A DNA stretch of 33,621 bases from positions 1 through 33,621 of the forward strand of contig JAJDDX010000492.1 in the NCBI GenBank assembly GCA_029260055.1. Reading direction: 5' to 3'. This DNA comes from Phycisphaerae bacterium. GTDB taxonomy: Bacteria; Planctomycetota; Phycisphaerae; UBA1845. Below are positions 10,847 to 14,850 of this stretch, one piece after another (the stretch's first letter is position 1; each line of letters opens with the position of its first letter). The position numbers were made by a program, and so were the translations under genes. The notes under the pieces were generated by a model that saw only the letters and a program-made list of their open reading frames with translations, had not been told where the DNA came from and did not search any database.

Positions 10847-12379
10847 TCAGGGCTTACCCTTCTTGGTTCGAACCGCAGCCACCTTCCGCTTTCCACGGCG
10901 CTGAGCGCTCTTGGCCCGCCCGCTACTCGAGCCGGCTGACCTTTTCTCCGGGCGCTCCCACAGGTAATACACCGGGCGCGACCCGATCAGCCCTCGAAAA
11001 GTCTGCGCCAGAAACTGCGGCGATTGCCGTTTGACCCGGTGTTCTCCACCGACGGTCGTGCGCGCGTACCACCGGTAGACCACCTCGGATACGATCCGCC
11101 GGACTCGCCGACTTCGGCACACGCGCGCTGGAAAGTCGCGTGCGCTGGGGTCCACGTCGATCGCGGTTAGCGCCGCGAGCGCGCGTCGGCAAGCGGGCGA
11201 CACGTCGTACTGCCCGATCCGCCGCATCCCCCCTCGCTCAAATACGGGGTTGAACTCCCCCATCGATGCCAGGCACTCGACATAGCGCCGCCCCACCAGC
11301 GGCAGCGTGCGACGGACCAGGTGATGCCCGAGGCCGCAGCCACGCACGTCGGGGTGAATCACCAGGCGCCGCAAGATTCGCATGCTGCGGTTGAGCAGCT
11401 TCGGCTTGCCGACGAAGCGGCTGTCTGTCACCTTGTTGCGAAGCGAGAGTTCGAGCGGGCCGTGTGAGTAGACAACGATCCCGAGCGGATCCCCGCCCTT
11501 GCCGTCCCGCATGACGAACACCTTGTCGACGAAGCCGAGTTCGTCGGTCGCTCGATAGTGCATCGCGGAAAACGCGTCGTAGTCACGTTTGGTGCCGCGT
11601 TCGATGCGCAACCTTCGCCGGAAGCTGATCGGCCGGCGCGGCTGAACCTCGCGCGGCTCGACATCGCACCGTCCTGAGCCGTGCAACCGCACGATGGTGG
11701 TCGGCTGGAGGTCGTCGACGATGTCCTCGTTGCTCGACGCGACGACGACGCAGAGACCGCTTTGCAGCACCAGCTTCCGCAGGTTGTGACTGATCGCCTT
11801 GGCGGCCCGGCGGTGGAGAATCGAACAGAATTCGTCGCATAGAAGCGGTGTGACCTGCCCGCCACGAGCCTGCAGCGCCACGCCTCGCGCGAGGCGAGCC
11901 CGGAACCGTTCGCCATCGGATAGCTCTGAGAACCGCCGCACCCAGAGGCGGGCTTCACCGAGCCCGCACAGCGTCAACATCGACGCTGCCTCCGACCACG
12001 CCCCCCACGGCGCCACGGCGTCGATGATGGCCGCGTCGCGCGGGAACGCCACGCGGTCCACCCGGCACGCCCCCGCGAAGCATCGGTCGATCTCGGATAG
12101 TGCGGTCGACTTGCCGCTGCCGGACGGTCCGAGCAGCAGCACGATCTGCCCCGGACCCAGCGGAATTCGGGTCGATGGGACGATCGTGGTCGGTGCCCCG
12201 AAGAGCGACACGCCGAACTGAATGCCAACCGCAGCCGTCCGCTCCGACGGCTTGCCGAGTCGCGGCGTCCGCACGCAGGCCAGCTCGATCGGGCGCGTCA
12301 CCGCCCCGTTCGTGCCCCCGGCTGAACCCACGCGCGTCGCCGTCTCGACTCCCCCCATCGCCATCTTCCCGTTCCCCAA
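10847..12379 (-). CDS. ABC-type ATPase fused to GNAT acetyltransferase (COG2401-like)
   Basis: 510 residues from TTG 12379, or 505 from ATG 12364; both are weakly supported. The ATPase half has Walker A GPSGSGKST (84-92), signature LSDGE (153-157) and Walker B VTPLLCDEF (176-184, Asp182-Glu183). The switch-His position reads VVVASSNED (211-219), with no histidine. Residues about 256-400 form a GNAT fold with the acetyl-CoA motif RGCGLG (346-351). The C-terminus is strongly basic (SGRAKSAQRRGKRK), suggesting nucleic-acid contact. No membrane segment is present, so this is not a transporter subunit. The fusion matches the rare family 'ABC-type ATPase fused to a predicted acetyltransferase', whose function is unknown. 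A near-consensus promoter and operator-like repeat lie upstream, next to a CI/LexA-type repressor on the same strand. Confidence 0.88.
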   Translation of the reverse strand: MGNGKMAMGGVETATRVGSAGGTNGAVTRPIELACVRTPRLGKPSERTAAVGIQFGVSLFGAPTTIVPSTRIPLGPGQIVLLLGPSGSGKSTALSEIDRCFAGACRVDRVAFPRDAAIIDAVAPWGAWSEAASMLTLCGLGEARLWVRRFSELSDGERFRARLARGVALQARGGQVTPLLCDEFCSILHRRAAKAISHNLRKLVLQSGLCVVVASSNEDIVDDLQPTTIVRLHGSGRCDVEPREVQPRRPISFRRRLRIERGTKRDYDAFSAMHYRATDELGFVDKVFVMRDGKGGDPLGIVVYSHGPLELSLRNKVTDSRFVGKPKLLNRSMRILRRLVIHPDVRGCGLGHHLVRRTLPLVGRRYVECLASMGEFNPVFERGGMRRIGQYDVSPACRRALAALTAIDVDPSARDFPARVCRSRRVRRIVSEVVYRWYARTTVGGEHRVKRQSPQFLAQTFRGLIGSRPVYYLWERPEKRSAGSSSGRAKSAQRRGKRKVAAVRTKKGKP

Positions 12380-12433
12380 GGCCTCGCTACCCGGCAGCCG
12401 ATCACCCCCGACCGACCACCTAACACACCCCTA

Positions 12434-12461
12434 ACTATAGCACCCGAGCAAGCCATGTCAA
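12434..12461 (-). promoter_or_regulatory. Strong promoter of the ABC-GNAT gene
   Basis: Minus strand: perfect -35 TTGACA (12456-12461), 16-nt spacer, -10 TATAGT (12434-12439). It is one of the best promoter matches in the window. The -35 overlaps the inverted repeat at 12460-12479 by two bases, so a bound repressor would block RNA polymerase. Confidence 0.75.
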
Positions 12462-12479
12462 TAATATAGCAATATTATT
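12460..12479. promoter_or_regulatory. Operator-like inverted repeat O1
   Basis: AATAATAT-AGCA-ATATTATT is a perfect 8-bp inverted repeat in an otherwise GC-rich region, abutting the -35 box of the ABC-GNAT promoter. It contains GCAATATTA, similar to the half-site in O2 at the repressor start. Confidence 0.65.
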
Positions 12480-12505
12480 ACTGATCGGGCGGCGGAGGAG
12501 GGCTC

Positions 12506-12543
12506 GGCTTCCCCTCTTGCCAAGGGGGGACCGAGGAGGGTCT
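12506..12543 (+). repeat. C-rich palindromic repeat, copy C
   Basis: CCCCTCTT (12511-12518), loop GCC, AAGGGGGG (12522-12529) with one G-T pair, then ACCGAGGAGGGTCTGGCC. It lies between the repressor stop and the ABC-GNAT promoter. Confidence 0.7.
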
Positions 12544-12579
12544 GGCCGGGATGCCGTGAGTCACGGCGGTGCCCGCGTT

Positions 12580-13242
12580 TTAGCACTCGCGGCAGACGAG
12601 GCGGACGACGACGCCTTGGATCTGGAATTCGCGGCTGTCGTCGATCAGGAGGGGGGCCCTGCGGGGGTTGTCGCCGCGGAGGATCACCAAGCGCCGGCCG
12701 TCCCGCCACTCGACGCTGACGCGCTTCAGCGTGGGCTCGCCGTCGACCAGGCAGGCGCAGATTCGGCCCTGCACGTGCTCCGGCTCGACATCGGGGCGGT
12801 ACTGAACCAGCACGATGTCGCCCGGCTTGAGGGTGGGCTCCATGCTGTCCAGGGCGAGACGCAGGCAGAAGCAGTTCGGCGACCACTGATGCCGCAGGAC
12901 GGGGAACATCTCGAGTTGCTCCTGCGACTCAGCCGGCGGACCGGCCGGGATCGACCCGAAAAGCGGAAGCTCCCGCGTCTCCCACGGCTGCGGTGCGTCG
13001 TGCTCATCGCCGCCGCCAATGAGCACCCCCTGCGGCAGATTAAGGGCGATGGCGAGGGCATCGATCGTCGGACGCCGCGGATTGGCCTTACCCCGTTCGA
13101 TCTGCGACAGATACCCCTGATTGATACCAGCCGCCTCGGCGAGTTCGACTTGCGATTGCCGCAATTCCCGCCGCCGCCGCCGAATCCGCGCCCCGACCGA
13201 CTCCTCGGCCCGCTGCTCGACGATGGATGTATCATATTGCAT
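12580..13242 (-). CDS. CI/LexA-type repressor: XRE HTH plus S24 self-cleaving domain
   Basis: 220 residues. Residues about 17-70 form an XRE helix-turn-helix (RQSQVELAEAAGINQGYLSQ, then IERGKANPRRPTI). The C-terminal half is an S24 autopeptidase: Ala100-Gly101 in SIPAGPP is the predicted cleavage site, Ser133 in LDSMEPTLKPGD the nucleophile and Lys173 in EPTLKRV the general base. All parts needed for RecA-stimulated self-cleavage are therefore present. The short length and HTH type are closer to phage CI or HdiR-like regulators than to canonical LexA (winged HTH). The inverted repeat O2 overlaps its ATG, implying autorepression. No SD precedes the ATG. The ABC-GNAT gene downstream has its own operator-like site. 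Confidence 0.92.
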   Translation of the reverse strand: MQYDTSIVEQRAEESVGARIRRRRRELRQSQVELAEAAGINQGYLSQIERGKANPRRPTIDALAIALNLPQGVLIGGGDEHDAPQPWETRELPLFGSIPAGPPAESQEQLEMFPVLRHQWSPNCFCLRLALDSMEPTLKPGDIVLVQYRPDVEPEHVQGRICACLVDGEPTLKRVSVEWRDGRRLVILRGDNPRRAPLLIDDSREFQIQGVVVRLVCREC

Positions 13243-13250
13243 ACCAATAT
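13234..13250. promoter_or_regulatory. Operator-like inverted repeat O2 over the repressor start codon
   Basis: ATATTG-CATAC-CAATAT is a perfect 6-bp inverted repeat. It includes the repressor start codon (13240-13242) and shares the CAATAT half-site with O1. Binding here would give autoregulation. Experimental binding is untested. Confidence 0.6.
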
Positions 13251-13623
13251 TCTACGACGCGGTTGGCAATACGGCAACCGCAGCGGGACGCCGGGCACCC
13301 GGTTCGGGCTGCGGGCGCCGATTGCCGAGTCGGCCGCAACCAGCAGCTGGCCAACTTAGGGCTGGCTCGGCTGCGACACGCCAGTCATGCAGATCGTAGC
13401 GTTTGTGCCGACGCCTTCCATCGACGCAGCGGTGGCCGTCCATCCCTCGGACGTACTCTACCGGTTCATGCTTGACAGTATTATGCGTGCTACGTTTGGC
13501 GAGTCGACGCCAAGACCAGAAAAACGGGCGAATTCTTGGCCAAGGTTTTGTATAAACAGTTTTTTGGGCGTAGAATTGGTCTTGTTCGGTGTCAGCCAAG
13601 AGAAGGCGAGCAGGGTGGCGACC
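13243..13623. other. Intergenic region between divergent repressor and Fic genes
   Basis: About 380 nt, assuming the downstream Fic start is correct. The Fic frame stays open through most of it, but the translation upstream of 13624 has no family resemblance. It becomes AT-richer after about 13470, with an isolated TTGACA (13472-13477) and a TATAAA (about 13551) that do not pair at a normal spacing. No gene is called. Confidence 0.45.
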
Positions 13624-14850
13624 GTGGACATTGAAAGATTCACTGAATTTAAAACCGGAGTGCTGGAACCTGTTGTCGGCAAGGCTGGCAGGCGTGGTTG
13701 GGCCTTCGTTCCGAATCGGCTGCCCACCATGGGGCCCATGAGAGACGAACTTTGGTCAGTAGTCGCGGATGCACAACAAGCCGTCGGTAGCCTCGAGCAG
13801 GTCAAGGGAATACTCCAGGAGCCGTTCCTCCTGCTCGGCCCCCTCCAGCAGCGAGAGGCGGTGATTTCGAGCAGACTCGAAGGGACCTACACACTTCCGG
13901 AGGATCTCCTGCTTTTCGATGTTGAGCAGGAAGAGAACGACGCAGTACGAATCCCGGCGAACCAGAGAGGGAATGAAAACCTCGAAGTCTGGAATCACTA
14001 TGAGGCTTTGCGTCAAGGGCACAACTGGCTACGGAACGGCAAGCCCCTGGACAAATCGTTAATCCTGCATCTTCACAAGATTCTGATGACCGGCGTGAGG
14101 GGTAAGGACAAGAGCCCGGGAAAGTTTCGCGACTGCCAAGTCGCCGTGGGGCAGTATCCGCGCAAGTTCGTTCCACCTCCGCCAGATCGAATAGAGTCGT
14201 GCATGGATCAGCTGGAGGAGTACATAGCGAGCGATGAGACAAATGCCTTAATCAAGAGCTATGCAGTCCACTACCAGTTTGAGGCAATTCATCCGTTTCA
14301 GGACGGGAACGGTCGAGTCGGGCGCGTCTTACTTTCGCTTTGCGTGAGCAGTTGGCTTAACCTGAGCATGCCGTGGCTGTACATGAGCGAGTTCTTCGAG
14401 AGTCACAAACGCGAGTACAGCGATCGTCTGTTTGGCGTAAGCACCAATGGCGAGTGGGCTGAATGGCTTGCGTTCTGCATGCAAGGAACCATCGAGCAGT
14501 CGTTAGCCTCGATTCGTCGTTGCGAGCACTTGCGATTCCTCCGAGATCATTACTATGCGCAGGTACAAGGGCTTGGCCCGAGGCTGCGAGAAATCGTCGA
14601 CATGCTCTTCGTCAGGCCGATGATACGTACCGCCAAGGTTGCCGAACGATGCGGAGTCACCGAAGAGACCGCCCGCCAAGATATAAAGAAGATGGTCGAT
14701 CTCGGAATACTCAGCGTCCGCCCCAAGACGCGGCCTCGGTCATTCGCATGCATTGGGATAATCGACGCAGTGTATGGCGACCCGCCTGCTGACGATGCGA
14801 GTGAGCACGAGCCGCCCTCTTCGCAATCTCCCCCCGTTACTAAGGGGTAA
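13624..14850 (+). CDS. Fic-domain protein (class II, autoinhibited AMPylator type) with winged HTH
   Basis: About 408 residues from GTG 13624 (VDIERFTEF); the frame is open from 13387, so the start is uncertain. An N-terminal Fic_N region carries the inhibitory helix SSRLEG (about 82-87, matching S/TxxxEG). The Fic core holds HPFQDGNGRVGR (about 223-234) with the catalytic His. A C-terminal winged helix (TAKVAERCGVTEETARQDI) follows. Fic proteins usually transfer AMP to target hydroxyl groups; the inhibitory helix sets class II control. Base composition is lower in GC than its neighbours (14041-14100 is 50%), consistent with transfer. The last residues (SPPVTKG) and the stop codon are encoded by a C-rich repeat copy. 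Confidence 0.9.
   Translation: MDIERFTEFKTGVLEPVVGKAGRRGWAFVPNRLPTMGPMRDELWSVVADAQQAVGSLEQVKGILQEPFLLLGPLQQREAVISSRLEGTYTLPEDLLLFDVEQEENDAVRIPANQRGNENLEVWNHYEALRQGHNWLRNGKPLDKSLILHLHKILMTGVRGKDKSPGKFRDCQVAVGQYPRKFVPPPPDRIESCMDQLEEYIASDETNALIKSYAVHYQFEAIHPFQDGNGRVGRVLLSLCVSSWLNLSMPWLYMSEFFESHKREYSDRLFGVSTNGEWAEWLAFCMQGTIEQSLASIRRCEHLRFLRDHYYAQVQGLGPRLREIVDMLFVRPMIRTAKVAERCGVTEETARQDIKKMVDLGILSVRPKTRPRSFACIGIIDAVYGDPPADDASEHEPPSSQSPPVTKG

Follow-up and report, generated by a model that had tools for sequence, protein, structure and literature searches.

A putative DNA-damage-inducible ABC ATPase–acyltransferase of Phycisphaerae, predicted to be held by both LexA and a CI-type S24 repressor

The gene for a soluble ABC ATPase fused to a GNAT acetyltransferase (ABC-GNAT) in a Phycisphaerae bacterium is very probably LexA-regulated as a member of the SOS response, a CI-type S24 repressor (REP), encoded 200 bp upstream on the same strand, serving as a second lock. 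Our preferred reading, to which we assign a probability of roughly 0.6, is that ABC-GNAT is an SOS output held by two self-cleaving repressors and works as an ATPase-acyltransferase, most likely on a nucleic-acid base. In this model LexA would bind a GTTAGG-N5-GTTAGG repeat over the -10 element and start site of the ABC-GNAT gene, REP would bind ATATTG/CAATAT sites around the -35 element, and REP would repress its own gene through the same kind of site. DNA damage would activate RecA, both repressors would then be cleaved and the enzyme would be made; its ABC part would probably engage DNA using ATP, while its Mom-like GNAT domain would use acyl-CoA to acylate a target that is most likely a nucleic-acid base. 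Such a double lock would suit an enzyme whose expression in undamaged cells is a burden or a danger, and a doubly locked DNA-damage output, with an ABC-GNAT gene under LexA and REP, appears to be previously unreported.

The window, that is the whole stretch of DNA analysed, is the 33,621-nt contig JAJDDX010000492.1 of a Phycisphaerae bacterium (GCA_029260055.1), and it was compared with a set of 100 related Phycisphaerae genomes; the relatives are from uncultured Phycisphaerae (Planctomycetota). All of the support is computational, drawn from comparisons of sequences, profiles and predicted structures. The features of the locus are collected in Table 1.

Table 1. Features of the ABC-GNAT/REP locus, in window coordinates.
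Feature	Position	Strand	Basis or remark
ABC-ATPase–GNAT protein, 510 aa ORF from TTG	10847..12379	-	ORF, domain matches
GNAT domain, Mom-like MHYR motif and RGCGLG acetyl-CoA motif	11204..11647	-	alignment, profile, structure comparison
Soluble ABC ATPase domain	11651..12247	-	Walker A, LSDGE, LLCDE
LexA-box-like direct repeat GTTAGG-GGTGT-GTTAGG	12419..12435	-	overlaps -10 and start site
Extended -10 TATAGT of ABC-GNAT promoter	12434..12439	-	TTGACA-N16-TATAGT
-35 TTGACA of ABC-GNAT promoter	12456..12461	-	TTGACA-N16-TATAGT
Putative REP half-site AATATTGC	12469..12476	-	upstream of ABC-GNAT -35
REP, CI-type HTH and S24 repressor, 220 aa	12580..13242	-	ORF, domain matches, cleavage residues
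Putative REP operator, perfect palindrome ATATTGGTATGCAATAT	13234..13250	.	spans REP start codon and -10
Fic/SoFic-like protein	13387-14850	+	divergent from REP

The preliminary description of this DNA had placed an S24 repressor, with an Ala100-Gly101 cleavage site and a Ser133/Lys173 dyad, upstream of and on the same strand as an ABC-ATPase/GNAT fusion with a basic tail, and had made recurrence of the pair in related genomes a test of its proposal. The ORFs, domains and residues were confirmed, and the pair does recur. Both genes are found in 72 of the 100 genomes, ABC-GNAT alone in five, REP alone in three and neither in 20 (Fisher p=1.5e-13); one genome (G084), in which the sole ABC-GNAT match is weak and partial, was scored as lacking the gene. 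The three REP-only genomes are incomplete, and among genomes at least 90% complete the corresponding counts are 54, 2, 0 and 15. Family f4 has neither gene, and leaving it out gives p=3.7e-4. In 26 genomes, 18 of them in family f1, one in f2 and seven in f8, REP precedes ABC-GNAT on the same strand at less than 2 kb, as tallied from gene coordinates and counting genomes rather than independent events; the two genes lie apart in most of the remaining genomes that have both. The REP/ABC-GNAT pairing is not accidental.

Both genes are almost always single copy and are conserved across families, with identities of about 42-72% for ABC-GNAT and about 55-78% for REP. This conservation, which extends to the promoters, makes it highly improbable that the two genes persist by chance as leftovers of a prophage, domesticated or decaying, an origin that the phage repressor type of REP and the occurrence of ABC-GNAT proteins in phages and phage-plasmids might otherwise suggest. 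Phage genes were not found near the pair, whose neighbors in the window are core metabolic genes, such as those for citrate synthase and methylisocitrate lyase, and given these surroundings the ABC-GNAT locus looks chromosomal rather than prophage-borne. No conserved third partner was found: REP excepted, each gene near ABC-GNAT is shared by 10 or fewer of the 73 loci. The divergent Fic gene was rejected as a partner since, among the loci searched, it is present in this window only. In two genomes (loci L058, at G027:C25, and L115, at G055:C39) ABC-GNAT has the true lexA gene in its vicinity.

REP matches HTH_3/HTH_31 at residues 17-71 and Peptidase_S24 at residues 93-213 (E=1.3e-14), and its scissile Ala100-Gly101 bond and Ser133/Lys173 dyad are those of a self-cleaving S24 repressor. 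These residues are almost invariant in an alignment of 39 REP orthologues, where Ser133 is replaced by Cys in one row and Lys173 by Ala in one; in family f8 the scissile Ala is replaced by Asn, giving an Asn-Gly site (rows L113, L128, L132, L140, L141 and L142). RecA-dependent cleavage of REP upon DNA damage is predicted from this signature, and a RecA gene is present in the source genome. REP has HTH_3/HTH_31 instead of the N-terminal LexA winged HTH (PF01726), which is absent from it. We rejected the identification of REP as LexA because the source genome encodes a distinct, true LexA (PF01726) in a separate gene elsewhere (G000:C409).

Control of ABC-GNAT by DNA damage, as proposed in the preliminary description, is strongly predicted, although its clearest element is a LexA-box-like direct repeat that had been missed, and the true LexA is encoded elsewhere. 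The ABC-GNAT promoter, predicted to be a strong one, has the form TTGACA-N16-TATAGT. With up to two mismatches, GTTAGG-N5-GTTAGG is present in 60 of 65 ABC-GNAT promoters (38/39 in f1 and 22/26 in other families), and in nearly all f1 promoters it lies 26-27 bp past the -35 element. The exact repeat is found in 40 of 67 ABC-GNAT promoters, on the sense strand only, against none in 664 kb of background. Two TTNGG cores are almost invariant across 60 of these promoters, in a matrix that describes the pattern and is no test of it, the promoters having been chosen by the pattern itself.

The same repeat is seen at known SOS genes. Of 20 genomes, 12 have an exact copy ahead of lexA. In the source genome it stands upstream of lexA, imuA and a gene for a sigma-70 region 2 protein, and ruvC has a copy with one mismatch. 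The imuA gene of the source genome was called by sequence reading and has no Pfam match; its orthologue at the same box in another genome (G008) matches the RecA family. The number of exact repeats in the source genome, seven against 13 in the reversed control, is not in excess, and the support from this genome comes from the positions of the repeats. Among 30 relatives the repeat is far commoner than in the reversed control, with genes for Y-family polymerase, ImuA, LexA, ribonucleotide reductase, sigma-like proteins and ABC-GNAT downstream; some additional matches in two of the genomes (G010 and G011) have one sequence in common, as would copies of a repeat element. The box was not found at recA in the source genome. 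At lexA itself, in most genomes, it precedes the part that encodes the LexA DNA-binding domain by 400-570 bp, which is unusually far, and often a second box in the opposite orientation is found about 45 bp off (L149-L168).

GTTC-N7-GTTC is the LexA box of alphaproteobacteria (PMC8565304, PMC9578287). From its likeness to that box, and its presence at lexA and other SOS genes, we take GTTAGG-N5-GTTAGG to be very probably the SOS box of this Phycisphaerae group; no earlier LexA-box model for Phycisphaerae was found in the literature searched. The ABC-GNAT promoter carries this box, which places the gene among the predicted SOS members.

A second kind of site is attributed here to REP. The exact ATATTG-N5-CAATAT occurs once in the 7.6-Mb genome, at REP's own start, and its core, ATTG-N5-CAAT, is present in 14 of 41 ABC-GNAT and 12 of 41 REP promoters of f1, compared with nine occurrences in 664 kb of background. 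A longer form of the operator is found at 33 places in the 100 genomes, many of them at REP or ABC-GNAT, against three in the reversed control. In many genomes a REP-type operator lies over the ABC-GNAT -35 element, and this includes unlinked genomes (10 of 18 promoters, with up to three mismatches), so that its presence is not merely due to gene adjacency. ATATTG half-sites are likewise enriched, be the promoters from linked genomes, unlinked genomes or other families, with P about 1e-10 or less in a binomial test that uses the average frequencies of the fetched loci and is therefore somewhat inflated for A+T-rich promoters. Direct control of ABC-GNAT by the neighboring repressor, which had been proposed for the window, is well supported across the family, although in this one promoter the operator is reduced to the distal half-site and an ATTGACA arm overlapping the -35 element. 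We rejected a large REP regulon, since the source genome has one exact operator and many of the near-exact matches in relatives are REP or ABC-GNAT promoters; the clear exception among those read is a sigma-like gene in genus g3 (G002, G032). The REP regulon is predicted to be very small.

The reduced operator in the window bears on a simpler account, in which ABC-GNAT is an ordinary LexA-regulated SOS gene and REP mainly regulates itself, with little effect on ABC-GNAT. In its favor, almost every ABC-GNAT promoter has the LexA-like box, which is exact in the window, while less than half of them have a full-length REP operator, and five genomes have ABC-GNAT without REP; the REP-type operators in unlinked genomes, the order-wide enrichment of half-sites and the tight co-occurrence of the two genes argue against it, and we consider it unlikely. 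Regulation by both repressors is our preferred reading, and the points that weigh against it are the half-site in the window, the genomes without REP, the distance of the box from lexA, its absence from recA and the Asn at the scissile position in f8.

The ABC-GNAT protein probably starts at an ATG at 12364, the listed choice, or 12358, which are likelier than the TTG at 12379; the TTG sits in a conserved CCTTGGGGA stretch that resembles a Shine-Dalgarno sequence and is doubted for this reason. The ABC part has the Walker A (GPSGSGKS), signature and Walker B motifs of an ABC ATPase; its H-loop His is replaced by Asn (SSNED) in the window protein and its close relatives, with His in other members. 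The GNAT domain follows, with its RGCGLG motif, and then the basic tail. The predicted structure is confident (pLDDT 89.8). The order of ABC and GNAT domains agrees with COG2401, on which no papers were found in the literature searched. Membership of PADLOC mad3 was rejected, as the match to the ABC part is weak. An extra C-terminal helical domain, at about residues 393-478 of the window protein and ending in YYLW, is found in the Phycisphaerae ABC-GNAT proteins; phage members are without it.

Work on jumbo phages cites an earlier prediction that acylation of a DNA base is the function of a GNAT joined with an ABC ATPase (PMC7824862). The GNAT domain of ABC-GNAT has the HY motif of the Mom family: H247-Y248 is invariant in ABC-GNAT, phage members included, as is H58-Y59 in the Mom alignment. 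Profile comparison with Mom gives 70% (E=4e-5) when phage members are included and is weak when they are left out; between single sequences the similarity is not significant. Searched alone against solved structures, the domain has Mom (8bv8) second by Z (Z 12.6), with the longest alignment (166 aligned) and a Z tied with several ordinary GNATs; against viral models Mom is also second. In three phage relatives examined, a gene for a ParB-like nuclease directly precedes the ABC-GNAT gene, and in phage Appa a Mom-like gene likewise adjoins one. The Mom-like fold and motif, this phage context and the published prediction together point to nucleic acid, DNA or RNA, as the likeliest target, with protein a possible one. 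Action on nucleic acid, as the preliminary description had it, is thus plausible, and it stands as a prediction.

The strongest alternative keeps the regulation as proposed and has the GNAT domain acetylate either tRNA or a protein, such as one bound to DNA or one that serves in replication, rather than DNA. We regard it as possible if somewhat unlikely: the domain keeps a canonical acetyl-CoA motif, which Mom is without, RimI matches that motif better than Mom as a single sequence, and ordinary GNATs tie in fold score, while the HY motif and the longest fold alignment are shared with Mom and the phage relatives adjoin ParB-like nuclease genes as the Mom-like gene of Appa does. The canonical motif, the RimI match, the ties and the weak profile match without phage members are also the points against acylation of the Mom type, which we nevertheless favor.

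The predicted regulation resembles the alphaproteobacterial LexA/SOS system in its direct repeat with an 11-bp period and in the presence of the box at lexA, imuA, Y-family polymerase and ruvC genes; it differs in the repeat unit (GTTAGG/GTTCGG/GTTTGG), in its planctomycete host and in predicted members that include the ABC-GNAT gene and a sigma-like gene. REP is similar to the non-canonical LexA of Bacteroidetes and to HdiR of Streptococcaceae, which are also host-encoded and have a CI-like HTH with S24, an Ala-Gly site and a Ser/Lys dyad. In contrast to these, REP coexists with a true LexA, has a tiny predicted regulon and appears to share a target promoter with LexA rather than replace it. 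ABC-GNAT shares its HY motif and GNAT fold with Mom of phage Mu, and its architecture with proteins of phages LE4, Jace and Pmp13; unlike them, the Phycisphaerae gene is chromosomal, is conserved order-wide and has an SOS-type promoter and no ParB neighbor, and its product has the extra C-terminal domain and a canonical acetyl-CoA motif.

These results give a concrete LexA-box model for Phycisphaerae, and they place the ABC-GNAT family, so far only a predicted DNA modifier, in the predicted DNA-damage response. They also suggest that a phage-type S24 repressor acts beside LexA on one promoter, not in its stead. In its most far-reaching form the proposal would be an AND-gate on damage, made of LexA and a CI-type S24 lock, operating across a bacterial order, with an enzyme that acylates bases in the cell's own DNA as its output; this is a tentative extension that we think rather unlikely to hold in full, and if true, such acylation would add a new arm to the response to DNA damage.

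In several Phycisphaerae (L171:1577-2584; L105:2021-3055; L106, L277, L281, L283, L286, L287, L288) the LexA-like box lies in the promoter of the gene for the sigma-70 region 2 protein, which is about 340 aa long and is a candidate SOS sigma-like factor; in genus g3 this gene has a REP operator in addition to the box. In the source genome an M16 peptidase gene (L170:1560-2840) has a near-exact box directly past a -10-like TATAAT.
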